A stretch of 21,896 bases of DNA from a virus. A program made the translations under genes and the position numbers. The DNA lies in IMG/VR virus record IMGVR_UViG_3300037503_000028, positions 1 through 21,896 of that record; one strand, written 5' to 3'. Numbering within the stretch: the first letter of the stretch is position 1; every line of letters begins with the position of its first letter. The notes below the pieces were generated by a model that did no database searches, was not told the origin of the DNA, and worked only from the letters and a program-made list of their open reading frames with translations. This document shows positions 1,655 to 17,670 of the stretch, piece after piece.

Positions 1655-2596
1655 TTGGCTCAGGACGCGAAGGCACCCGAACCGCAATTCACGGTCGTCA
1701 CGGACAGGCGGACGGCGTCGGCGGCGGTAAGGTTCTACCGCATCCGCGACTTCGAGAAGTTGCAGCACTACAAGGACCGGGCGCTCGTCTGGGTGAAGCT
1801 CTACGTCGAGCAGCTCGACGACTATGAGTTCATACAGTTGCCGGACGCGGTCAAGTACCACGTCCACGCCCTGATGCTCCTCGCCGCACGCTCGGGCAAC
1901 AAGATCCCGAACGACCCCCTGTGGGTGGCGGCCCGCATCGGCGCGAGCGACCCCGTGGACCTCCAGCTCCTCTTCGCGCGCGGCTTCCTTGAGGAGTGGA
2001 GGCCGCGGCCGCAGGACGCGTACGAGCCGGGCGAGCAGTTGGAGCTTCCGGCCGACGGGCAGGCCCCGACCCCAGCCGCAGCCGGGCCGAACCCTTCCCC
2101 GCCGGCCGCTTCCGGGCCTGATAGCAACTTGCTAGCAACTTGCTATCAAGTTGCTAGCAAGTTGCTAGCACAGAACAGAACAGAACAGAGCAGAGAAGAC
2201 ACAGATACAGACACGGCGCCCGCTAGCGCGGAGCGCCTGTGTGAGTGCTGCGGTGTCGGTGTGCGCTCTGAGTTCTCGTTGCCGGAGGCCGCGGAACTGG
2301 TGAGGCACTGGAAGGCCGAGGGGCGGAGGGTCGGCGGCCGCCCCGTCGAGAACGTCTACGGGCTGGCGCGGACGATCCATCGCGAGGGGACGGCCGACGA
2401 CGAGCTGAGGCTGCTCCTGCGGCCGCCCCCGCGGCGCCCGTTCGCCGACGAGCCGTGCCCGACCTGCTTCGGCGGGAAGCTCTACACGCCGGAGCCGGGC
2501 AAGGGCGCCAAGCCGTGCCCGGACTGCGTTGACGAGACGGGCAGGCGGACGGGCAGGCGCGCGCTGGACACCGACGCGGCCGGGCGGCCGCCGTGA
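1655..2596 (+). CDS. Phage replication initiator/replisome organizer-like protein
   Basis: The 313-residue ORF starts at TTG 1655, six bases after a perfect GGAGAAGGAG site. Residues 25-118 resemble the winged-helix N-terminal domain of phage replisome organizers: FYRIRDFEKLQHYKDRALVWVK, then VKYHVHALMLLAARSGNKIPND, then the DLQLLFARGFLEEW helix. A low-complexity Pro/Ala linker (about 125-155) follows, then a segment whose DNA holds an 11-bp iteron array. The C-terminal part has CECC near 194 and a zinc ribbon at 267-291 (CPTC...CPDC). Placing an origin inside the initiator gene follows the phage lambda O plan. It probably melts the origin and recruits a host or phage helicase. No separate helicase gene is visible in the window. 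Confidence 0.72.
   Translation: MAQDAKAPEPQFTVVTDRRTASAAVRFYRIRDFEKLQHYKDRALVWVKLYVEQLDDYEFIQLPDAVKYHVHALMLLAARSGNKIPNDPLWVAARIGASDPVDLQLLFARGFLEEWRPRPQDAYEPGEQLELPADGQAPTPAAAGPNPSPPAASGPDSNLLATCYQVASKLLAQNRTEQSREDTDTDTAPASAERLCECCGVGVRSEFSLPEAAELVRHWKAEGRRVGGRPVENVYGLARTIHREGTADDELRLLLRPPPRRPFADEPCPTCFGGKLYTPEPGKGAKPCPDCVDETGRRTGRRALDTDAAGRPP
2122..2170. repeat. Iteron array, candidate replication origin
   Basis: Four tandem 11-bp units lie head to tail: TAGCAACTTGC at 2122 and 2133, TATCAAGTTGC at 2144 and TAGCAAGTTGC at 2155, then a partial TAGCA at 2166-2170. Each unit has a near-palindromic GCAAsTTGC core, and the first two units are the reverse complement of the last two, so the array is also one large inverted repeat. 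The 11-bp period is not a multiple of three, so conservation acts on DNA and not on protein. The site lies within the replication-initiator coding sequence. Confidence 0.75.
2171..2214. repeat. CAGAA-type purine-rich repeat beside iterons
   Basis: Directly after the iterons the top strand reads CAGAA, CAGAA, CAGAA, CAGAG, CAGAG, then AAGACACAGATACAGACAC. It is almost free of T and much less GC-rich than its surroundings. Next to iterons, such asymmetric tracts often form the unwinding region of an origin. This role is inferred. Confidence 0.5.
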
Positions 2597-2606
2597 GGGT
2601 GCGGGG

Positions 2607-2849
2607 ATGGCGGCATTAACGCCGGGGGTGAGGGCCGACGCACGCAGGGCGCTCTCGCGCGTCGTCTGCCTCGGCTGTAACAAGGCGAAGCCGGCGGGGC
2701 ACGTCTTCTGCCGACCCTGCTTCTGGAAGCTGACGCCGGGGCAGCAGAAGGCGCTTTACACGTTCCACGAGTCCGAGGCTTTCGCGGAAGCCTTCGCGGG
2801 CGCCCTGACGACGCTGCGGCCGCGCGCAATCGTCTACGAATTAACTTGA
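2607..2849 (+). CDS. Small zinc-ribbon protein, 80 aa
   Basis: The start is set at ATG 2607, just after the replication gene and preceded by GGTGCGGGG. A longer in-frame reading from 2529 would lie inside the upstream gene and is Arg/Gly-rich noise. The product carries CLGCNKAKPAGHVFCRPC, a four-Cys zinc ribbon (CxxC-x10-CxxC), followed by FWKLTPGQQKALYTF and an Ala-rich helix. Small ribbons of this shape are common beside phage replication genes and probably bind nucleic acid or a replication partner. The tight gap to the upstream gene suggests one transcript. No specific function can be assigned. Confidence 0.7.
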   Translation: MAALTPGVRADARRALSRVVCLGCNKAKPAGHVFCRPCFWKLTPGQQKALYTFHESEAFAEAFAGALTTLRPRAIVYELT

Positions 2850-2882
2850 GCGGCCGGCGGCCGCGGCAGGAGGTGACGGCGC

Positions 2883-3206
2883 ATGACGCCGCTGATCACG
2901 CCGGAGAAACGTGAGGCCATCGTGCGGCGCGCGGCCGAGGCGATGTGCGCGATGACGGAGCCGGTGCTGTTCGAGCTGGACCCGGTGCTCGCCGTCGGGC
3001 TCGTCGGGCAGCTCCAGATCGCCTTCCGCCACCCCGCCAACACGGGCGAGACGCGCGAGAGGTTGGAGCAGTTCGTGCGGGACCTCATCGAGCGGCTCGA
3101 CCCTGCGCACGGCGACCTCCACGCGCTGCTGATGATGGGCTTCGACGCGCGGTACGACGCACCGGAGGGGGCCGATTTTCAATCCGAGCAGGTGTCAGAA
3201 CGGTGA
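2883..3206 (+). CDS. Hypothetical helical phage protein, 107 aa
   Basis: ATG 2883 has an excellent ribosome binding site (GGAGGTGA, 8 bases upstream). The protein is almost wholly alpha-helical, with helices around 7-30 (EKREAIVRRAAEAMCAM), 33-50, 55-74 (TGETRERLEQFVRDLIERL) and 78-90, and no Cys cluster or membrane segment. I do not recognise the family. Its stop overlaps a GTG at 3203 that is in frame with the integrase gene, so translation may be coupled. It sits between replication and integration genes and is probably an early-operon accessory protein. Confidence 0.65.
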   Translation: MTPLITPEKREAIVRRAAEAMCAMTEPVLFELDPVLAVGLVGQLQIAFRHPANTGETRERLEQFVRDLIERLDPAHGDLHALLMMGFDARYDAPEGADFQSEQVSER

Positions 3207-3274
3207 AAGCGCCGCGCCGCGGAAAACTCAGTAAAAATGCGGGTCCGGCGGGCGGCGGGGGCGTCGTGTCGCTT

Positions 3275-4327
3275 ATGAAAACGCCGATTATAGAAAGCGA
3301 CCGAACGGAGCCCCCGGCCCGGCCCCGCATCGCGCTCGTCCCGCCCGGCGCGGCCGCGCTCGACCGGCTCGCCGCGCTCGACACCCTGAACCCCGCGCGC
3401 CGCTACCTGAACACGCTCTCCGGCCCTTCCCGGCGGAGTATGCGCTCCAACCTCCGGAGGGTCGCGCGACTCCTCAACTGCCGCCTCGACGAAGTCCCCT
3501 GGGAGAGGTTGCGCGCCGACCACCTCAAGGCGCTCAGGGCCGCGATGACCGACCAGGGCCTTCTGCCCGCGACCATCAACGTGACGCTGGCGGCCTTGAG
3601 GGGTGTGGCCCGGCAGGCTTACGAGATGCGCGCGATGGAGCCGGAGGACTACCGGCTGGTCGCGCGCGTGGGGAACGTCCGCGGGGGGCGCGTCTCGGGC
3701 GCGGCCCGCGCGCTCGACGTGCGCGAGGTGGGCGCACTCCTAGAGGCGTGCGCCGCCGACAAGACGCCCGCGGGCGCGCGCGACGCCTGCCTCGTGGCGC
3801 TCCTCGCCGGGGCGGGCCTGAGGCGCGCCGAGGCCGTCGCGCTCCGCCTCGAAGACTGGAGGGCGCGCACGCACACGCTCAGGGTGCTGGGGAAGGGGAA
3901 CAAGGAGCGGCTCGTCTACCTCGAAGACGGCGGGGCGCGCCGCGCGCTCCTGGACTGGCTGAAGGTGCGGGGGCGGGAGCCCGGCGCGCTCCTCGTCCCC
4001 GTGGCCGCCGGCGGCCGGCTTGAGCTGAGGCATCTGACGGGGCAGGCCGTCTACGACGCGGTCCGCAAGCGGAGAGCCCAGGCGAGCATCCGCCGCCGCT
4101 TCTCGCCCCACGCCCTGCGCCACTTCTTCGCCGACCAGGCCATCCGCGAGGGCGGCGAGGTCAAGGCCGTGTCGGAGCTTCTGGGCCACGCCTCGGTGCA
4201 GACGACCGAGATTTACTACCACGGCGGCGAGCGGGCCAAGCGGCGGGCCGCGGCGACCGTCAGGCTGCCGTATGGGGCCGGGCGCGGCCGCCGGAAGAGG
4301 AGGCGCAGGCGCAGGCGCCGTTCGTGA
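3275..4327 (+). CDS. int: Tyrosine recombinase / phage integrase
   Basis: Site-specific recombinase for phage integration and excision. From ATG 3275 it is 350 residues. It has a core-binding SAM-like domain at about 36-125 (NPARRYLNTLSGPSRRSMRSNLRRVARLL) and a catalytic domain at 145-330. Visible catalytic residues are R183 in GAGLRRAE, K207 or K210 in GKGNKER, H279-x-x-R282 in HALRH, H305 in LLGHAS and Y314 in TTEIYYH. The start is uncertain. GTG 3266 and GTG 3203 (overlapping the stop of the upstream gene) are in frame, and ribosome binding sites are weak for all three. The C terminus is odd, ending in an Arg tail (RKRRRRRRRRS). The gene lies inside the early operon and not at an outer edge. 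Confidence 0.93.
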   Translation: MKTPIIESDRTEPPARPRIALVPPGAAALDRLAALDTLNPARRYLNTLSGPSRRSMRSNLRRVARLLNCRLDEVPWERLRADHLKALRAAMTDQGLLPATINVTLAALRGVARQAYEMRAMEPEDYRLVARVGNVRGGRVSGAARALDVREVGALLEACAADKTPAGARDACLVALLAGAGLRRAEAVALRLEDWRARTHTLRVLGKGNKERLVYLEDGGARRALLDWLKVRGREPGALLVPVAAGGRLELRHLTGQAVYDAVRKRRAQASIRRRFSPHALRHFFADQAIREGGEVKAVSELLGHASVQTTEIYYHGGERAKRRAAATVRLPYGAGRGRRKRRRRRRRRS

Positions 4328-5268: not shown

Positions 5269-5318
5269 TTATCAGACATCCTTATAATTTAACGTATAAT
5301 TATAAGGATGTCTGATAA
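5269..5318. repeat. 50-bp near-perfect palindrome
   Basis: The arms at 5269-5289 (starting TTATCAGACATCC) and 5298-5318 (ending GGATGTCTGATAA) are perfect 21-bp reverse complements. The middle ACGT at 5292-5295 is also symmetric about the same centre, so only two base pairs (5290/5297 and 5291/5296) break a 50-bp palindrome. It is very AT-rich in a GC-rich area and sits between convergent genes, exactly where composition drops. It has no T-run on either side. It could be a bidirectional terminator, a recombinase or resolvase site, or an element end. Confidence 0.8.
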
Positions 5319-5402: not shown

Positions 5403-7241
5403 TTATCCCTGTAGCTGCTCCATGATGTCTGCGAGTTCACGCGGAATGAGACGCACCCTTTGCAGGCTTCTACGAAGGCGGTGTGGATAGATGACATTCT
5501 GTCCGCCTAGAGCCTGCTGGTACAAAGGCATCAAGTGATGACCGTTGCGGTCTATCATCCATCTAGGATACTCAACTACCTTCCCGTTTGTGAATGTAAC
5601 TGCATGAGGCGTTGTTTCCCCTGCCGTTAGCCCGGTAATTAGGGGTTCTACCTGTGACCGGATTGTGCTCGCGATAGACTGTAGTTCTGTTTCAGACAAT
5701 GTACGTATAACATGTTCATTCCCCAGTGAAATGCTCACTCCCGGGACCGGCGGGGCCGTGCCTTGCTCAAGCAGCACTCCGAAGACCACGAACGGGTCGA
5801 GCAGATAATTTTCAATGTTGTATCTGCTCAAGACGTATACCCGCGGCGCAGGGGTGTTGTTAGTGTCGTGATCAATAATTCCCCGAAATAATTGGTCTAA
5901 AGGCTCCTGGTCGAACTTCTCAACCCATTGAGTGACTACGCTCATTCCTCCTCCGACTTTCCCCCGTCCCCTGCCTCGTGACGCCGGCATGAAGACAATG
6001 CTTGGCGACGGCTTTATCGCTCTGGGGTCACGACTGGGGCCGTAATCAGACAGGATGTCTCTGATGGCGCTGTAAAAGTCAACGTCATCCTCATCCTCCA
6101 CGAGCACATAACGAGTGCCGGGAGAGACGATGACCATCCCGGCCGTGAGTAGCCCAATGGCATGCGCCTTTGATTTAGCTTGGGATATCCGCGGTGCGGT
6201 CCGCGACATCTCGAACACTGATCCCTCGGGCGCCAACGCCACGGTCGAGGGGGAGTGCGTCGTCATGATGACTCTGATTTTGTACTGGTCGACGAATACT
6301 TCCTGTATGACATTCATGAACTGGCGCGCCATCGAAGGGTGGAGGTGGGCGTCCGGCTCGTCGAGAAGAAATAGGCGGGGAAAATGGCCGTGATTCTGCG
6401 AGTTGTACAGCCAAAGGAATAACCTGAGTATCAATTTTTCTCCTGAAGAAAGTTCCACCGGTAACAGCGGTATTCCTGTCCGCGTGTCTTCCAAGCGAAA
6501 AACGTATCCCTGCTCAAGTTTCGTCCCTTGCGGAGAGATCGCCCGATAGGGGAACTCTGCGGCTTGCAGGGTCTCATTTAAAACATCCCAGGGGGCGGGT
6601 GGGAGAGTGGTAGTAACCTCTTCGTTCAAGTCTTTTCGCTCAAGCTCTTCCATTAACCTTAATCTGTGGGCGAAGAAGACGTAGGTGATGCCCGAGATCA
6701 CATCTACCTCCTCAAGCATGAAAGAGAAATCATCAGGCAGCTTCTCTAAGACCTGATTTAAGGTCACATTGCCGATTGGTGTGGCTGCTAGATTGAGTGG
6801 GGCTCCTACTAAGCGTTCTAGCCGCGCCCGTTTGGAGCTTATGGTCAGACTGTTTCGGCTTTGCAGATTACTGACCAGATTTACCTTTGTCCGCTCTAGT
6901 TCTGAAACCCCGACTCCCGTAGTGCTCTTTATATCCCACTCATCCGACAAGTAAGCGACTTCATCCGGGCCAAATGTGTCGCCGGTAACTGTGAAATGCA
7001 TCTGATTAATTATGTGAGAGTGGTGCTCGTGCGCCGTGTTAGTGAGCTTATATGCCAGTAACTCAAGCAGTTGGGTCTTGCCGGACCCGTTTACTCCCGT
7101 CAGCACAGCAAGAGGCGGGATGTCCTTCCAGACAATATGGTTGATAGACTTGTAGGCTACCGAGTCGGGGCCGCCGATTTCTATGGTTAACGGGGTTAGA
7201 GAGGTGGTTGAAGTGGCAAGTGGTAAGTTAGGTGTAGTCAC
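5403..7241 (-). CDS. Fused ABC ATPase-DUF4435 protein, PARIS-like defence
   Basis: A 612-residue protein starting at GTG 7241. The N-terminal ATPase has Walker A GVNGSGKT at 49-56, an ABC signature LSSGE at 264-268, Walker B RLFLLDEP at 289-296 and an H-loop MTTHS at 326-330. The C-terminal half has VLVEDEDDVDFY at 379-390, IIDHD at 455-459 and YNIENYLL at 474-481. These are the acidic and IEN motifs of DUF4435, a Toprim-like nuclease fold. In PARIS, AriA (AAA_15 ATPase) and AriB (DUF4435) act together, AriB being released after AriA senses a phage trigger protein and then cleaving tRNA. Here both are in one chain. OLD-family ATPase-nucleases are the alternative. Codon use and GC are unlike the flanking phage genes, so it is transferred cargo. 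Confidence 0.82.
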   Translation of the reverse strand: MTTPNLPLATSTTSLTPLTIEIGGPDSVAYKSINHIVWKDIPPLAVLTGVNGSGKTQLLELLAYKLTNTAHEHHSHIINQMHFTVTGDTFGPDEVAYLSDEWDIKSTTGVGVSELERTKVNLVSNLQSRNSLTISSKRARLERLVGAPLNLAATPIGNVTLNQVLEKLPDDFSFMLEEVDVISGITYVFFAHRLRLMEELERKDLNEEVTTTLPPAPWDVLNETLQAAEFPYRAISPQGTKLEQGYVFRLEDTRTGIPLLPVELSSGEKLILRLFLWLYNSQNHGHFPRLFLLDEPDAHLHPSMARQFMNVIQEVFVDQYKIRVIMTTHSPSTVALAPEGSVFEMSRTAPRISQAKSKAHAIGLLTAGMVIVSPGTRYVLVEDEDDVDFYSAIRDILSDYGPSRDPRAIKPSPSIVFMPASRGRGRGKVGGGMSVVTQWVEKFDQEPLDQLFRGIIDHDTNNTPAPRVYVLSRYNIENYLLDPFVVFGVLLEQGTAPPVPGVSISLGNEHVIRTLSETELQSIASTIRSQVEPLITGLTAGETTPHAVTFTNGKVVEYPRWMIDRNGHHLMPLYQQALGGQNVIYPHRLRRSLQRVRLIPRELADIMEQLQG

Positions 7242-7450: not shown

Positions 7451-7476
7451 CTTTATGGTCAGACTTTATGGTCAGG
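7451..7476 (+). repeat. Tandem 13-bp repeat
   Basis: CTTTATGGTCAGA at 7451-7463 is followed immediately by CTTTATGGTCAGG at 7464-7476, with one mismatch. A related CTTTTATGGTAGA lies at 7391-7403. This may be an operator pair for the divergent or downstream minus-strand gene. Confidence 0.55.
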
Positions 7477-7525: not shown

Positions 7526-8311
7526 CTAATTCATGCTGTTGTTATTTTCACACGGGGCGAAGTGAGTCGAATAGGCTTGGTAAACAACGCAGTAGCTAGT
7601 CACATGTGCCTTGCCAAAAATGTCCTCGTATTGCAACACCCCCCACGCATACAGGTGCTTCTGTCCTTTGGAAACTGCTGCGAAGGTACTTTCATCCAGA
7701 ACCACATTCGATGGGGCGAAAGTGGCAACCTCAGCGTCCGGTGCGATGGTCGCGGCGCTCATGCTCCCCCGAACGGTAACGGAGGCACCATCGGGTACTG
7801 GACTATCTCTAATTTGAACCTCCGATGTGATACGGGCATTTCGGGCAGGGGTATTCCCCTTGTTCGCCATGATAAAATTTACTATTGGCATCTCACCGAC
7901 CTTCATTTCTTTAGCCATCTGAGCTCCGGTGACTATGACCCATGCACGGTTCTCAATTTCGCGGGTTTCTTTTGCGTCCTTGAGGCTTTCCATCACCGCC
8001 TGCCATTGCTTGGAAGAATAGTAAGTGGAAAAGGCGGTGAAAATGGCTACCGCGCCGCTAAAGATGAGCGTCAACACGATGTTGAGCTTGTCTATCTGCC
8101 AGTATGGGTTGGCCGGCTGCTGATAGTTCTCGCTGCGGTATGCGTGCTTTGCGGGCTGTAGTTTCTGCTCTTCTTCGGGCTGTAGGGGCCTGAGGTTGTC
8201 GGGCGTTGGGGCGTCGGTCCTAACCGTCTGACCGGCGGATGGCGTATGGCTCTGCTGCGGCTGGCGCTTGGCGTGGCGTTGCTTGTTCTTAGTTGGTCTT
8301 CGACTTGGCAT
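7526..8311 (-). CDS. Single-pass membrane protein of unknown function
   Basis: ATG 8311 has GAGG about 9 bases upstream on the minus strand, and the protein is 261 residues. Residues 1-70 are basic then Gln/Pro-rich and likely disordered in the cytoplasm. One membrane helix spans about 75-97 (LNIVLTLIFSGAVAIFTAF). A charged helix follows (KQWQAVMESLKDAKETREIE), then NRAWVIVTGAQ and a beta-rich domain including IMANKGNTPARNARITSEV. The AWV plus N-x-GNTPA pattern is shared by many hypothetical membrane proteins found in variable genomic islands. It lies upstream of the ATPase-DUF4435 gene in the same direction, separated by 284 bases. It may be a membrane partner of that gene, but no data in the sequence prove this. 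Confidence 0.72.
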   Translation of the reverse strand: MPSRRPTKNKQRHAKRQPQQSHTPSAGQTVRTDAPTPDNLRPLQPEEEQKLQPAKHAYRSENYQQPANPYWQIDKLNIVLTLIFSGAVAIFTAFSTYYSSKQWQAVMESLKDAKETREIENRAWVIVTGAQMAKEMKVGEMPIVNFIMANKGNTPARNARITSEVQIRDSPVPDGASVTVRGSMSAATIAPDAEVATFAPSNVVLDESTFAAVSKGQKHLYAWGVLQYEDIFGKAHVTSYCVVYQAYSTHFAPCENNNSMN

Positions 8312-8866: not shown

Positions 8867-9196
8867 ATGAGCGCAACCGCAACCGACAAAACGACCATCA
8901 GCCGCGACCAGTTCAAGCGCGTCGCCGAGAAGGTCGCGAAGGAGGCGCCCGCGATATTGAAGGCGCGCGACAAGTCCGACAAGGCGATGGACAAAAAGAG
9001 CGCCTTGCTACGGGCGCTCTACTTCAGTCTCCGCGAAAAGCTCGGCCTCCCGGCCGAGAAGTTGACCACGATGGGGTTCAAGACTTACGAGCGCGCCTAC
9101 CTTGAGGCCGTCTACACGCTCGCTTATGAGCGGGCGAAAGAACCCTTCGACTACGAAAAGGCGGTGGACGATTTTATGTCGAAGGCACTGCGCTAA
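8867..9196 (+). CDS. Hypothetical helical protein, 109 aa
   Basis: ATG 8867 follows TTAAGGAGAGTCATT, a strong ribosome binding site. The product is Lys/Ala-rich and helical: residues 10-40 (TISRDQFKRVAEKVAKEAPA and onward), 43-58 (KKSALLRALYFSLREK), then KLTTMGFKTYERAYLEAVYTLAYERAKEPFDYEKAVDDFM. No metal motif or membrane segment is seen. Its last 23 bases overlap the 3-prime end of the convergent secreted-protein gene. GC content is closer to the phage genes than to the cargo. The family is not recognised. Confidence 0.65.
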   Translation: MSATATDKTTISRDQFKRVAEKVAKEAPAILKARDKSDKAMDKKSALLRALYFSLREKLGLPAEKLTTMGFKTYERAYLEAVYTLAYERAKEPFDYEKAVDDFMSKALR

Positions 9197-9887
9197 GCCT
9201 TTCGAGTGCGACCCATTTCTTGCCGGCGTCGCACTCCTTCTTCGTCCCCTCGCACACCTCGAATCCCGTGACGGGGTGAACCTCCCAGGCGGTCGCCCTC
9301 GGCATATGTTCAAAATGGGCGTGCTGGCTGTCCCACATCAGCCAGCCCGTCACCCTCACGTAAGTCTTCGTTTTAGCCATTGTTTTGAGCCTCGGGAGTT
9401 TCCAATTCGCGTTGCGGGAGCGCGGGCTCATCTCGACCACCAGGGATTGCTCCATGTCGCCCGCCTTCGTGGCGACGATGTTAAGGTGGAAGTCGTTGTT
9501 TTCGTCGCCTTTTATACCGCAGTTGCAAGCTTCAGCGGTTTTGGTAACTGCGGCATGTATCAGGTAGCCTTTGATGGCGACCGCCGTCCCTTCCCCGATG
9601 TCTCTAAGCGGCTTACGGTCCGCGCCCATCTTCCACCTCTTAGGACTCTGTTCGTTCAGTTCTATCACGTCCGCAATAGACCACTCCTCGACGGCGGACG
9701 CCTTCGGGGAACGCGTCTGATTCTTGAACCTGTTGAGATTCGGGTCGCCGCCGCAGCCTTGCTCGGGACACTCGGCCAACGTTGCCACGCAGGGCGTTTT
9801 CTTACGTCTTTGGGCTTGCGAGTTTGTGTAGAGAAACGGCAGGACAAGGCAGAGCAAGAGAAGCGATAGGAGAACCCTTCTGTGCAT
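9174..9887 (-). CDS. Secreted protein with OB-fold-like core
   Basis: A 237-residue protein with a clear signal peptide at 1-26 (basic MHRR, Leu-rich core, SQA-Q cleavage), exported to the periplasm or outside. Five Cys occur after it before residue 125 (positions 33, 40, 45, 121 and 123) and two late ones (212, 219), which could form disulfides. Residues 98-206 look beta-rich with conserved-looking pieces: GEGTAVAIKGYL, EACNCG, NDFHLNIVA, LVVEMSPRSR, YVRVTGWLMWDSQH and TAWEVHPVT. The FHL and EVHP motifs suggest an OB-like fold and possible metal or nucleic-acid binding, but I cannot name the family. Its end overlaps the convergent upstream gene by 23 bases. It may be a lysogenic conversion factor, given its position among cargo. 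Confidence 0.72.
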   Translation of the reverse strand: MHRRVLLSLLLLCLVLPFLYTNSQAQRRKKTPCVATLAECPEQGCGGDPNLNRFKNQTRSPKASAVEEWSIADVIELNEQSPKRWKMGADRKPLRDIGEGTAVAIKGYLIHAAVTKTAEACNCGIKGDENNDFHLNIVATKAGDMEQSLVVEMSPRSRNANWKLPRLKTMAKTKTYVRVTGWLMWDSQHAHFEHMPRATAWEVHPVTGFEVCEGTKKECDAGKKWVALERLSAVPST

Positions 9888-10698: not shown

Positions 10699-10941
10699 AT
10701 GTCTGGACAAGATAATGGGGGGCGACGGGTAGGAGAGCGGCGACGCTCGACGGCCCGTGACGAAAATACGCGCCTGCGCGCTCTGGAGCGCGTCATGCGC
10801 GATTTCATCCTCTACGTGCGCGACAAGCCCCGTGATTTGTTCGCGCCGCGAACGCTGGCGATGGTGGACGAGTCTGAGATCATCGTCGGGGAACTTGACC
10901 AGTTACGATCCGAGGGGGGGCCGAAGCTTCCCGCGACATAA
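10699..10941 (+). CDS. Hypothetical small helical protein, 80 aa
   Basis: ATG 10699 has GGAGGGG 4-9 bases upstream. The N-terminal 20 residues are basic (GGRRVGERRRSTARDENTR). A helix LRALERVMRDFILYVRDK follows, then LFAPRTLAMVDESEIIVGELDQL. This looks like a small DNA- or protein-binding phage protein, but no family is recognised. It ends 10 bases before the first copy of the repeated promoter-like element. Confidence 0.62.
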   Translation: MSGQDNGGRRVGERRRSTARDENTRLRALERVMRDFILYVRDKPRDLFAPRTLAMVDESEIIVGELDQLRSEGGPKLPAT

Positions 10942-12792: not shown

Positions 12793-12999
12793 ATGCATGC
12801 ACCCAACGCCTGTGACGATTGCGGTAGGAAGAGCCCCACGCTCTACGAACGCGACCGCCTCCTCATCTGCATCTACTGCCTGCCCGACGAGGCGGTGATC
12901 GGCCTGGGCGCCCTCCGCTCCATCAAGGCGGCCGTGACGGGCGTCGTCAACATCGAGCGCCGTCGGCGCTCTCTGGCGGGAGGCCCTTCGAGGAAATGA
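12793..12999 (+). CDS. Small zinc-ribbon protein, 68 aa
   Basis: ATG 12793 has GGAG about 12 bases upstream. C7-x2-C10 (CDDC) and C26-x2-C29 (CIYC) make a four-Cys zinc ribbon of the kind found in many tiny phage proteins. The C-terminal part is a basic helix (SIKAAVTGVVNIERRRRS). Its stop overlaps the ATG of the metallopeptidase gene by four bases, indicating translational coupling. The function is unknown. Confidence 0.68.
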   Translation: MHAPNACDDCGRKSPTLYERDRLLICIYCLPDEAVIGLGALRSIKAAVTGVVNIERRRRSLAGGPSRK

Positions 13000-13565
13000 G
13001 CGGGCGGAAGGAATACGCCCGCGCGCCCGAGGTCGAGGCGATAGCCGAGGGGCTGATTGACCTCTGTCACCCGCACCTTCACGGCGTCCGCATCGAGTAC
13101 CTGTGGACGAACAAGCCGCCCGTCGTCGGCGGCCGGCCGCGAGCGGCGGTCATGCGCAAGGTCACGGGGCTCTATGCCTTCCTCGCCACGTCCGGCGCCG
13201 AGGGCGAGCCGCGGCCCTTCTTCGTGATGGAAGTCTGCCGGCCCATCTGGCTCGCCCGCTCGGCAGAGTGGCGGGTCGCGCTGGTGGATCACGAGCTGAA
13301 GCACGGCGGACACGACGAAGGGCGGGGCACTCTCTTCATCGTGCCGCATGACATCGAGGAGTTCGACGACGTGGCCGCGCGACACGGGGCCTGGGATGAC
13401 GGGCTCGTCAGTTTCGCCGCGGCGCTGGCCGCGGGCGAGGAGGGGAAGACGCCGCTGGCGTCAGACGCCCCGTTGAAAAACAATAGGTATCAACGCCATG
13501 CCGTTCAGACCGGGGCACAGCGGAAATCCGAATGGAAGGCCGCCCAAGTTCAGGGCGCTCACTGA
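12996..13565 (+). CDS. Putative phage metallopeptidase
   Basis: A 189-residue protein coupled to the upstream gene (ATGA overlap). The key motif is VALVDHELKHGG: H99-E100-x-x-H103, the zinc-binding HExxH of metallopeptidases. WLARSAEWRVALVDHEL is the pattern of the phage metallopeptidase family that often lies near terminase genes. Residues 1-90 include IDLCHPHLHGVRIEYLW and beta strands. The third zinc ligand is not clear; H106 in GGHDEG or a downstream Asp/Glu/His are candidates. Its last 68 bases overlap the next gene in another frame, so the C-terminal tail (APLKNNRYQRHAVQTGAQR onward) is coded by shared DNA. The natural substrate is unknown. Confidence 0.8.
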   Translation: MSGRKEYARAPEVEAIAEGLIDLCHPHLHGVRIEYLWTNKPPVVGGRPRAAVMRKVTGLYAFLATSGAEGEPRPFFVMEVCRPIWLARSAEWRVALVDHELKHGGHDEGRGTLFIVPHDIEEFDDVAARHGAWDDGLVSFAAALAAGEEGKTPLASDAPLKNNRYQRHAVQTGAQRKSEWKAAQVQGAH

Positions 13566-13893
13566 CCTCCTCAGCCTCCGCGGCGACGCCCAGGTCACTC
13601 TCGACGGCGAGAAGTTGAGCGGCGGCGAGCTGCTCGCGCGCCTCCTGTGGCAGATCGCGACGACGGGCAAGGCGAAGTTCCCCGACGGCACGGAGTTGAT
13701 CGTCGGGCCGAAGGATTGGCTGGAGACGGTGAAGTGGCTTTACGTCCACATAGACGGCCCGGCGCCGAAGCCCGAGCCGGAAGACCCCGACGACGAGTTG
13801 ACGGATGAAGACCTCGAAGCCATGTCGGACGCCGAACTCGAAGCCCTCATCAAGCGCAGGCAAAGGCGCAAAGGCGCCGGGCGCGGCAAGTAA
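13498..13893 (+). CDS. DUF5681-like protein, candidate small terminase
   Basis: ATG 13498 lies inside the metallopeptidase gene in a different frame with only a weak TAGG upstream, but the conserved motif FRPGHSGNPNGRPPK at residues 3-17 falls within the overlap, so the start must be near here. This is the N-terminal signature of DUF5681, often found directly before large terminases. The middle (LTDLLSLRGDAQVTLDGEKL) is followed by an acidic, helical C terminus (DPDDELTDEDLEAMSDAELE) and a basic tail. A role as small terminase subunit, binding DNA for packaging, fits size and position but is not proven. Its end overlaps the terminase start by 89 bases. Confidence 0.72.
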   Translation: MPFRPGHSGNPNGRPPKFRALTDLLSLRGDAQVTLDGEKLSGGELLARLLWQIATTGKAKFPDGTELIVGPKDWLETVKWLYVHIDGPAPKPEPEDPDDELTDEDLEAMSDAELEALIKRRQRRKGAGRGK

Positions 13894-15388
13894 GAGGCGG
13901 GGGCGTGCGCGGCCCCTCGACCAGTACGAGCGCGCGTCCGCGGCGGACATCGCGCGCGCGGTCCGGGAGCTGAGGCGGCGCCGCCGGAAGAAGAGCAAGG
14001 GCACTCGCTCTTTGACATTTATCGAGTTCGTTCAACTCGTTAAGCCTTCCTATCAGTGGTACAAGCACTGCCTCGTCCTGGCGGCGGTGCTTCAGAAGGT
14101 TGCCGACGGGAAGATCAAGCGGCTGATGATCTTCATGCCGCCCCGCCACGGCAAATCGGAGCTGGCCTCACGCCTCTTCAGCGCCTACTTCCTTTACCTC
14201 TACCCGGAACGCTTCGTCGGCCTCTCGTCTTACTCGGCCGGCCTCGCCAACACGCTCTCGCGCGCCGCGCGCGAGAACTACACGCTGGCCGGCGGCGGCC
14301 GCTCGGGCAAGGCGAACGCGGTCAAGCAGTGGGAGACGGACAGGGGCGGCGGCTTCTGGGCGACCGGCGTCGGCGGCGAGGCGACGGGCAAGGGCTGGCA
14401 CCTCGGGATAATTGACGACCCGCTGAAGAACGCCGAGCAGGCCGGGTCTGAGGTCATCCGGGAGAAGCAGCGCGAGTGGTACGCCTCGACGTGGTACACG
14501 CGCGAAGAGCCCTGGAGCAATAAGGACCCGCACGGCGCGCTCGTCGTCATCAACACACGCTGGCACGAAGACGACATCTCGGGCTGGCTGCTCGCCGAAG
14601 AGAAGAACGGCGAAGAGCCCGAGCGGTGGCACGTCGTCAGCTTCGAGGCGATTAAAGAGGCCGAGCCGCAGACGTTCCCCGAGACCTGCACGGTCGAGCC
14701 CGACTGGCGCCAAGCCGGCGAGGCGCTGTGCCCCGAGAGGCGCCCGCTCGACAAGCTCAAAAAGATTGCGGGGCGCGTCGGCGAATACTTCTGGAGCGCG
14801 CTCTATCAGCAGCGCCCCGGCGCGAAAGAGGGGACGAAGTTCAAGCGCGAGAACTTCGAGATTCTACCCGCGCCGGCGCGGGCCGAGTTCGTCTCATTCG
14901 TCCGCTACTACGACAAGGCGGGGACGAAGGACGCGGGATGCTTCACCGTCGGCGCGCTGCTCGGGAAGACGCACCAGGGCGTCTTCTGGGTCCTCGACGT
15001 GGTGCGCGGGCAATGGGCCGCACTGGAGCGCGAGGAGATCATCCTTAATACGGCGAAGGCCGACCGCGCCATGTATGGCCCCGGCGTCGTGACGTGGGTC
15101 GAGCAGGAGCCCGGCTCAGGCGGTAAAGAGTCGGCCGAGGCGACCGTCAGAAAGCTCGCGGGCTTCATCGCCTACGCGGAGCGCGTGAGCGGCGACAAAG
15201 CTTTCCGCGCCGAGCCCTACTCGGCACAGGTGGCGCGAAAGAACGTCAAGCTGGCCGAGGCGGCGTGGAACGGCGGCTTTATCACGAGGCACTGCGCCTT
15301 CCCGCGGGGGAAGTACAAGGACGAGATCGACGCCGCCGGTGGCGCCTTCAACAAAATCTGCGGCGAGCAGACGGTGGAATTTTACTGA
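13805..15388 (+). CDS. terL: Terminase large subunit
   Basis: The 527-residue packaging motor ATPase-nuclease. Walker A is MIFMPPRHGKS around 108-118, and Walker B is HLGIIDDP at 199-206. NTRWHEDDISGWLLAEE near 250-266 is typical for this terminase group. The nuclease part shows D370 in YYDKAGTKDAG, EQEPGSGGK at 433-441 and D509 in KDEIDAAGGAFN as likely metal ligands. The first 45 residues are Ser/Lys/Arg-rich and coded largely in DNA shared with the preceding gene; no later ATG or GTG is available before residue 45, but an internal TTG at 14010 could be the real start. Its stop overlaps the portal ATG (TGATG). Confidence 0.93.
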   Translation: MKTSKPCRTPNSKPSSSAGKGAKAPGAASKRRGRARPLDQYERASAADIARAVRELRRRRRKKSKGTRSLTFIEFVQLVKPSYQWYKHCLVLAAVLQKVADGKIKRLMIFMPPRHGKSELASRLFSAYFLYLYPERFVGLSSYSAGLANTLSRAARENYTLAGGGRSGKANAVKQWETDRGGGFWATGVGGEATGKGWHLGIIDDPLKNAEQAGSEVIREKQREWYASTWYTREEPWSNKDPHGALVVINTRWHEDDISGWLLAEEKNGEEPERWHVVSFEAIKEAEPQTFPETCTVEPDWRQAGEALCPERRPLDKLKKIAGRVGEYFWSALYQQRPGAKEGTKFKRENFEILPAPARAEFVSFVRYYDKAGTKDAGCFTVGALLGKTHQGVFWVLDVVRGQWAALEREEIILNTAKADRAMYGPGVVTWVEQEPGSGGKESAEATVRKLAGFIAYAERVSGDKAFRAEPYSAQVARKNVKLAEAAWNGGFITRHCAFPRGKYKDEIDAAGGAFNKICGEQTVEFY

Positions 15389-17670
15389 TGAAAAAGAAAT
15401 CTCTCAGGAGCCGGGCGGCGAGCGCCCTCAAGTCTTTCGTCTTCGACTCGGGGAACCCCGACCACTGGTCCTCGGGCGGCGGCGCCAACTGGCTGAAGAT
15501 GCCCGACGGCAACCTCAACACGGGGCGCGTCAACGTGTGGGCCAGCTCCCTCGTCGTGGCCTGCTTGGCGTGGGGCGCGCGCAACCTTCGCCAAGCGCAG
15601 ATCACGCTCCTTAAAGAGACGGCGCCGAAGAAATACGAGCAGATCGCCTCCCACCCGGCGCTCGACCTGCTGAAGCGCCCGAATCCTCACTACTCGGCGA
15701 AGGCCCTCTTCATCGGCGCCTACCTCTCATACCAGCTCGACGGCAACGGCTACATCATCAAGGTAAAGAACGCCCGCGGCTTCGGCCTGCCGGTCGAGCT
15801 GTACTACGCGCCGCACTGGTGTATGCGGCCCGTCTACACGCCCGGCAGCTCGACCTGGATCGACTACTACGAATACACCTTCGAGGGGAAGCTGTGGCGC
15901 TTCGCGCCCGAGGACGTGATCCACATCAAGCAGGGCGTGGACCCGTTCAACCCGCGCCTGGGCTACGCGCCGCTGAAGAGCGTGCTGCTGGAGATATTCA
16001 CGGACGAGGAGGCGGCGAAGTTTACCGCGTGCCTGCTGAAGAACATGGCCGTCCCCGGCCTCATCATCTCTCCCGACGGCGGCGCCGGCACCCAAGTCTC
16101 GATTCAGCCCGAGCAAGCTAAGAACCTCATCGAGAAGTTCAAGCGGCGCTTCGGCGGGAAGAATCGCGGCGAGCCCTTCGTCTCGACCGGCCCGATCAAG
16201 GTGCAGACCGTCGGCTTCACGCCCGACGAGCTGAACCTCGAAAGCGTGCGCAAAATCCCGGCCGACCGCGTCGTCGGCGTGCTGGGCATCCCCGGCGCCG
16301 TCGTGGGCCTCGGCTCGGGGAACGAGGCGGCAACCTATAACAACCTGCGCAGCTATCAGCGTCAGGCGTTCGAGCAGCACCTCGTCCCCGTGTGGGATGA
16401 CTTCGCCGAGGAGTTGACCGACCAGCTCCTGCGTGACTACGACGACGACCCGGCGCTCTTCTTCGACTTCGATACTTCGGAGGTGGCGGCGCTCAGGGAA
16501 GACGAGGACGCGATTCACAAGCGCGCGAAGGAAGCCCTCGACGCGGGCGGCATTACCGTCCAGCAGTATCAGTCCATGCTCGGCCTGCCGGTGGACCCTC
16601 TCGCCAACTATTACCTCCGCATCTCGTCTAAGGCCCCGGTAACTCCGGAGGGCGCGGCCGAGCAGGCGTCGCTCGGGCTCTTCTCGGCCTTCTTCACGAC
16701 GCAGGAGCGGCTCGGCGACGGGCAGGGGGCGCCGGGCGCTCAGACGCCTCAGCAGCTCGCGCAGAAGGCGCTGGCGGCCATCATGGCGGCTCAGATGAAG
16801 CGGCTGCCGCCTTCCCCGGCCGAGCGCACCGTCGCGGCCGGCGGCGCCTTCAAATCTCTGGAGGACGATGTCGAGCAGACGCAGAGCGAAGCCGCGCCCC
16901 TCTTCGCCGAGGCGCTGCGCGCAGCCTTCGTCGGCATGGCGGCCGACGTGCCCGCGGAGGTGGCCGCCGTCGGCGCCCTGACGGACGCGGCGAAGGCCGC
17001 CGAGATCATCGGCACCCGCGTCGTCGGCCGCCGCGTCGAGCTGTTCACGACGGCCTTCGGCGAGATGCACAGCCGCATCGAGGAAGAGGCCAAGGCGCAC
17101 GTCCGTCGCGGGCTCCAGACGGAGGCCGTGAACAACGACGCCTCCCAGGCGGGCATCGCCGGCAACAACGCCGCGCGCGTCGCGGCCTACACCTCAGACC
17201 TCAAGCAGCAGACCGTTACGGCCGTGAGGGAGGCAATCCTCGCGATGGAGGAGGGCGCCACCCACGAGCAGATCGTCAAGCGCATCTCTCAGCACGTCTC
17301 GGGGCGGCAGATGTATCCCGGCGTCTTCGACCAGGCGCGCAAGGCCGCGCTCGTCAACGGCGCGACCGAGGCCGCGGCGGACGCGGCCGGCGAGGAAGCC
17401 GCCATCCTGCACCGGGCTCAGCTCATCGCCGAGACCGAGACCCGCACCTGTGCGAATTATGACTTGATCGAGACGCTGGGCGCGGCCGGCGTGGAGAAGC
17501 TTCTCGTGCATGACGGGGCCGACTGTGGCTGGGAATACCACGACCAGGATAAGAAGGCTGATGGTATGATTGTGACGCTCGCCCAGGCGCGCCGCCACCC
17601 CCTCAGCCACCCCCGCTGCCGCCGCCGTTTCACTCCCCTGACGGACGGCGGACAACCGGCGAGGGCCTGA
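15388..17670 (+). CDS. Portal fused to Mu-F-like head protein
   Basis: From ATG 15388 (coupled to the terminase stop) the protein has 760 residues, much longer than a typical HK97-type portal of about 400-500. Residues 1-430 match that portal family: VNVWASSLVVACLAWGARNL, HPALDLLKRPNPHYSAKALF, GNGYIIKVKN, YTFEGKLWRFAPEDVIHIKQ, LGYAPLKSVLLEIFTDEEAA, GVLGIPGAVVGLG. Residues 490-760 form a second module with long helices and a C-terminal Mu gpF-like motif: IAETETRTCANYDLIETLGA, then DCGWEYHDQDKKADGM, then HPLSHPRCRRRFTPL. Mu-F-like proteins are minor head proteins needed for morphogenesis. The fusion provides the vertex ring and its partner in one chain. Confidence 0.9.
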   Translation: MKKKSLRSRAASALKSFVFDSGNPDHWSSGGGANWLKMPDGNLNTGRVNVWASSLVVACLAWGARNLRQAQITLLKETAPKKYEQIASHPALDLLKRPNPHYSAKALFIGAYLSYQLDGNGYIIKVKNARGFGLPVELYYAPHWCMRPVYTPGSSTWIDYYEYTFEGKLWRFAPEDVIHIKQGVDPFNPRLGYAPLKSVLLEIFTDEEAAKFTACLLKNMAVPGLIISPDGGAGTQVSIQPEQAKNLIEKFKRRFGGKNRGEPFVSTGPIKVQTVGFTPDELNLESVRKIPADRVVGVLGIPGAVVGLGSGNEAATYNNLRSYQRQAFEQHLVPVWDDFAEELTDQLLRDYDDDPALFFDFDTSEVAALREDEDAIHKRAKEALDAGGITVQQYQSMLGLPVDPLANYYLRISSKAPVTPEGAAEQASLGLFSAFFTTQERLGDGQGAPGAQTPQQLAQKALAAIMAAQMKRLPPSPAERTVAAGGAFKSLEDDVEQTQSEAAPLFAEALRAAFVGMAADVPAEVAAVGALTDAAKAAEIIGTRVVGRRVELFTTAFGEMHSRIEEEAKAHVRRGLQTEAVNNDASQAGIAGNNAARVAAYTSDLKQQTVTAVREAILAMEEGATHEQIVKRISQHVSGRQMYPGVFDQARKAALVNGATEAAADAAGEEAAILHRAQLIAETETRTCANYDLIETLGAAGVEKLLVHDGADCGWEYHDQDKKADGMIVTLAQARRHPLSHPRCRRRFTPLTDGGQPARA

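Follow-up and report, generated by a model that had tools for sequence, protein, structure and literature searches.

What is the long gene that interrupts the phage genes of the window, the whole 21,896-nucleotide stretch of DNA analysed here, and why would a phage carry it? The window, a linear fragment of a virus recorded in IMG/VR, carries genes for an integrase, a terminase, a portal, a major head protein and a connector, and the phage is probably temperate because it encodes a tyrosine integrase. The gene very probably encodes a single-chain PARIS and serves this phage as a lysogenic-conversion gene. The features on which this reading rests are collected in Table 1.

Table 1. Features of the window, with strand and supporting detail.
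Feature	Coordinates	Strand	Remarks
Probable fused PARIS (AriA-AriB-like), single-gene ORF	5403..7241	-	612 aa, GTG start
ABC-type ATPase, AriA-like (AAA_21/AAA_15)	6132..7187	-	about residues 19-370; Pfam, PADLOC, PDB profile search
DUF4435/AriB-type Toprim	5406..6128	-	residues 372-612; E382, D457, D459; IENYLLDP; profiles and model
Perfect 21-bp inverted repeat, 8-nt spacer	5269..5318		left edge of low-GC block; probable attP core
Tyrosine integrase	3233..4327	+	Phage_integrase 99.9 bits
Terminase large subunit	13805..15388	+	start of late module
Portal protein	15382..17670	+	
Upstream ORF, 261 aa	7526..8311	-	likely transmembrane segment; no known family
Predicted secreted protein, 237 aa	9174..9887	-	in low-GC block; no family

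The reading frame runs uninterrupted through all 612 codons, and a weak ribosome-binding context lies upstream of its GTG. Every motif that the earlier note had named was found in it. Walker A (GVNGSGKT, with K55), the signature LSSGEK, Walker B (LFLLDE, with D294 and E295) and the H-loop (H329 in TTHSPST) are followed by VEDEDDVDFY (E382), IIDHD (D457/D459) and YNIENYLLDP. All 38 aligned relatives are invariant at G49, N51, G52, G54, K55, S265, G267, E268, D294, E295 and H329, and the Toprim acids E382, D457 and D459, putative metal ligands, are likewise invariant in the alignment. Because of this invariance, the motif set is not a product of chance.

The N-terminal half is an ABC-type ATPase. 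Pfam matches it to AAA_21 with 73.1 bits (cut-off 27) and to AAA_15 with 49.9 bits (cut-off 32.1), so that the AAA_15 call made earlier holds as a match above cut-off, with AAA_21 as the better one. The PADLOC model of AriA spans residues 44-334 with 79.6 bits, and a profile built from the 38 relatives retrieves the AriA chains 8ux9_B and 8v45_A from the PDB at 2e-11. The predicted model of the full-length protein (pLDDT 86.3, pTM 0.63) is less specific: its top matches are generic ABC heads (SMC) and retron ATPases (PtuA), and AriA and AriB are absent from the top 50 matches listed, which counts against PARIS. Class 1 OLD enzymes have a dimerisation domain inserted in the ATPase; in the window protein, residues 112-200 are mostly helical in this model, with low local confidence.

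Assignment of the C-terminal half to the AriB/DUF4435 or to the OLD type of Toprim was approached through profiles and fold. DUF4435 scores 20.7 bits in the full protein (residues 380-482) and 23.0 bits in the isolated domain, against a gathering score of 27, and its match encloses the IENYLLDP motif. DUF4435 aside, the isolated half has no Pfam match at E<=10, and OLD-like_TOPRIM (PF20469) is thus without a match even at this threshold. PADLOC, given the whole protein, places ATPase-Toprim_I-B (82.4 bits) 2 bits over AriAB (80.2 bits) and above AriA (79.6 bits), a ranking that counts against PARIS; given the C-terminal half alone, it returns AriB (27.9 bits, 5.6e-7) and AriAB and no other model. 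Across 32 C-terminal domains, that of the window protein and those of 31 relatives, PADLOC gives AriB for 17, AriAB for 14 and ATPase-Toprim_I-B for one, while Pfam finds DUF4435 in 11 and OLD-like_TOPRIM in two (best E 0.063).

A PDB profile search with the C-terminal domain alone gave no credible sequence match, and structure comparison was therefore used. The AlphaFold model of the domain (pLDDT 93.4, pTM 0.91) finds its best Foldseek matches in 8v46_D and 8ux9_A, from AriA-AriB complexes (prob 0.99, E about 1e-3); these chains are read as AriB because 8v46_A and 8ux9_B are listed as AriA. The next nuclease in the ranking is the OLD Toprim 6nk8 (prob 0.47). Over the whole domain the similarity to AriB is low (TM-score 0.36 by query length), which counts against PARIS. 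The match of the predicted model to AriB is remote, yet the ordering of AriB over OLD is clear. The earlier note had called for these profile and structure comparisons and had named an OLD-family C-terminal half as the result that would speak against it; neither the profiles nor the fold place the domain in that family. The DUF4435 domain is divergent, and its assignment rests on the combination of the sub-cut-off Pfam match, PADLOC, structure and the invariant acids. From its order in the DUF4435 match, E382 would be the equivalent of AriB E26, a known essential Toprim residue (PMC12409363). Both domains and their catalytic residues are established by these data.

The fusion is conserved among relatives. 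The four plasmid relatives that were fetched (27-31% identity) are all single genes with the same layout. A scan of viral contigs with the single protein found no relatives, and a scan with the alignment of these plasmid relatives gave 54 loci. Uninterrupted ORFs of 588-683 aa make up 45 of the 50 best viral relatives, with four others running off the contig end and one interrupted, a proportion that is no census of fused versus split forms, since the patterns used for scanning came from the ATPase half and fusions had made up the seed alignment. Among these 45 full-length single-gene relatives, three from unrelated phages are 33-50% identical to the window protein; the nearest relatives found, at 50% and 43% identity, both lie on uncharacterised phage contigs. 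A tblastn search of 50,697 phage records gave no match at 1e-5 and weak ATPase matches only at E<=1, so the branch was not seen in named phages there. In the tree, the window protein groups with L021 and L022 with full support, and viral, plasmid and chromosomal members are mixed elsewhere, as expected of mobile defence genes. The closest fusions belong to unrelated phages and occupy differing genome positions: between primase and terminase (L021), after the endolysin (L022), near terminase and primase (L023) and near tail genes (L024). Profiles, fold and conservation together bear out the fused AriA-like and AriB-like (DUF4435) architecture and the phage carriage put forward earlier. Relatives also have defence genes as neighbours: in Croceicoccus the neighbour is type I restriction, in Caballeronia a pair of TIR genes, in Cryobacterium an MzaC-like helicase and in Sphingomonas a DNA methyltransferase.

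A few relatives (L045, L063, L008, L012; L011, L013) carry other C-terminal motifs, and the ATPase has therefore been joined to Toprims of more than one type. The same ATPase is joined to a different Toprim-like C-terminus, with LFTEGITD ... FDFDxxGY in most, at L008 5947-7758, L012 5953-7704, L045 9771-11567 and L063 9263-11146. Their sequences suggest effector swapping.

The gene is cargo within its phage. It lies on the strand opposite to the phage genes, with a GC content of 0.52 and a GC3 of 0.59, whereas the phage genes on either side have GC3 values of 0.69-0.92, most of them 0.82-0.92. GC, GC3 and gene layout agree with the earlier description of low-GC cargo between the integrase/early and terminase/late modules. 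The gene itself is low in GC, as described; the unit is a larger block of 4.9 kb, from 5268 to about 10170, with about 50-60% GC in a phage that is otherwise mostly 65-70%. A sister phage, L077, with 94.7% identity in ORF 12996-13565 and 78% in portal, lacks this block and has different, high-GC genes between its integrase and the counterpart of ORF 10699-10941. This marks an exchangeable cargo position, in a sample of two phages. In the interval of L077 that matches the position of the fused gene, 1835-3718 encodes a 627-aa ATPase that is FtsK/HerA-like by eye. Neither an Rfam scan nor a tRNA scan of the window returned a hit.

The palindrome at the left edge of the block consists of the arms TTATCAGACATCCTTATAATT and AATTATAAGGATGTCTGATAA. 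A related repeat of L077 (1017-1057), 57 nt past the integrase, has the outer sequence and downstream flank (CTGATAATGGNNCTTATGGT) in common with it. A palindrome scan of viral contigs returned eight contigs, and the flank is held in common only with L077's own. The arrangement suggests that the palindrome is probably the phage attachment core (attP), in which case the cargo would adjoin attP. The position beside attP is a usual location of lysogenic-conversion genes. The heptamer TTATGGT occurs five times on the plus strand within 2.2 kb (window 5325, 6839, 7394, 7453 and 7466), an exact 12-mer, CTTTATGGTCAG, is found twice, at 7451 and 7464, and one of the TTATGGT set, inside the fused ORF, forms part of a 13-nt match, TTATGGTCAGACT. 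These copies are possible integrase arm sites or operators. As a cassette boundary they are unproven, with one copy within the ORF and no matching pair across the interval in L077.

Two neighbouring ORFs, 7526-8311 and 9174-9887, were considered as components of the system and rejected, since they have no family and no relatives beside other fusions; the latter has one weak plasmid match, in Gemmatirosa. No UvrD-like helicase gene of the kind that adjoins Gabija (Class 2 OLD) was found among the neighbouring ORFs scanned.

The main rival to PARIS is a Class 1 OLD-type enzyme, a single-gene ATPase-Toprim nuclease that acts on DNA, as P2 Old does, and stands outside the PARIS branch. It would have the same overall architecture in one phage-borne gene, and both the 2-bit lead of ATPase-Toprim_I-B and the place of 6nk8 directly after AriB among nuclease folds can be read in its favour. 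A review, moreover, leaves the border between fused AriAB and Class 1 OLD unclear (PMC10568477). The C-terminal domain nevertheless argues for AriB on each count: alone it matches only AriB and AriAB in PADLOC, its fold favours AriB, the DUF4435 match covers its motif IENYLLDP, and PF20469 misses it altogether and is weak in the two family members that it does match. An OLD-type enzyme is accordingly improbable.

Less probable again, and distinctly unlikely, is a phage gene of non-defence role, such as a Rad50/SMC-like ATPase with a nuclease in DNA repair or replication. The ATPase half does resemble SMC/Rad50 heads, but the gene is patchily distributed, moves horizontally as cargo and turns up in unrelated phages at differing places in the genome, differs from its own phage in GC and strand, and has relatives that adjoin known defence genes. 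Hardly any weight can be given to the view that the gene has decayed or is carried silently: the window is a metagenomic fragment and the context 5' of the GTG is poor, but the ORF is full-length with all catalytic residues intact.

The single-chain PARIS that is preferred here can be set against what is established for the system. A protein made by a phage is detected by an ATPase sensor, which then sets a Toprim tRNase to work (PMC12409363, PMC9122126), and AriB of the two-gene complex is released in order to act (PMC12409363). By analogy, the N-terminal ABC ATPase (the AriA part) would most likely form a multimer and bind a protein of an incoming, competing phage. This would switch on the C-terminal Toprim nuclease (the AriB part), which would cut host tRNAs through two-metal chemistry at E382, D457 and D459, so that translation stops and the infection is aborted. 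The triggers of two-gene PARIS are Ocr of T7 and Ptr1/Ptr2 of T5. A covalently attached effector cannot be released unless the chain is cut, and activation in place, by repositioning or dimerising the tethered Toprim domains, is therefore probable. A tentative extension is that in the phage-borne branch (L021, L022, the window protein and their kin) activation would proceed with the effector still attached, by rearrangement of tethered Toprim domains in the multimer, and that this branch may have another trigger or RNA target than E. coli PARIS. Phage carriage of PARIS is already established, and the example of PARIS on P2 and P4 makes a role in competition between phages plausible.

The fusion itself is not new. 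It was described with PARIS: the original paper gives two arrangements of ariAB, a cassette of two genes and a fusion into one, and used fusion profiles for detection (PMC9122126, Rousset 2022). A later paper repeats the statement (PMC12409363), and PADLOC has an AriAB model. The window gene is a divergent further case of known fused PARIS. The literature consulted yielded no experimental work on this branch. The window gene extends fused PARIS by a divergent branch that phages carry and shows the fusion as common cargo in unrelated phages, and such forms make it testable whether the AriB effector must be released or can act while tethered.

A comparison with known systems places the protein closest to the PARIS AriAB fusion (PADLOC; PMC9122126). 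Both join an AAA_21/AAA_15 ATPase to a DUF4435 Toprim in one chain and travel as phage or mobile-element cargo, but the window protein reaches only 80 bits with the PADLOC fusion model and its DUF4435 match is below cut-off, which sets it on a divergent branch. Two-gene PARIS (8ux9, 8v45-8v49) shares the AriB-like domain and the AriA retrieved by the family profile. Its effector, in contrast, is a separate protein, and its known activation, in which an AriB dimer is released, cannot carry over as it stands to a covalent fusion. Class 1 OLD proteins (P2 Old, T. scotoductus OLD 6p74) likewise combine an ABC ATPase and a Toprim in a single gene that can be phage-borne, whereas the window Toprim is of the AriB/DUF4435 type and lacks an OLD-like_TOPRIM match. 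Finally, HEC-04 and IbfA resemble the window protein in architecture, and these single-chain ATPase-TOPRIM proteins reduced phage productivity in experiments (PMC12111858).
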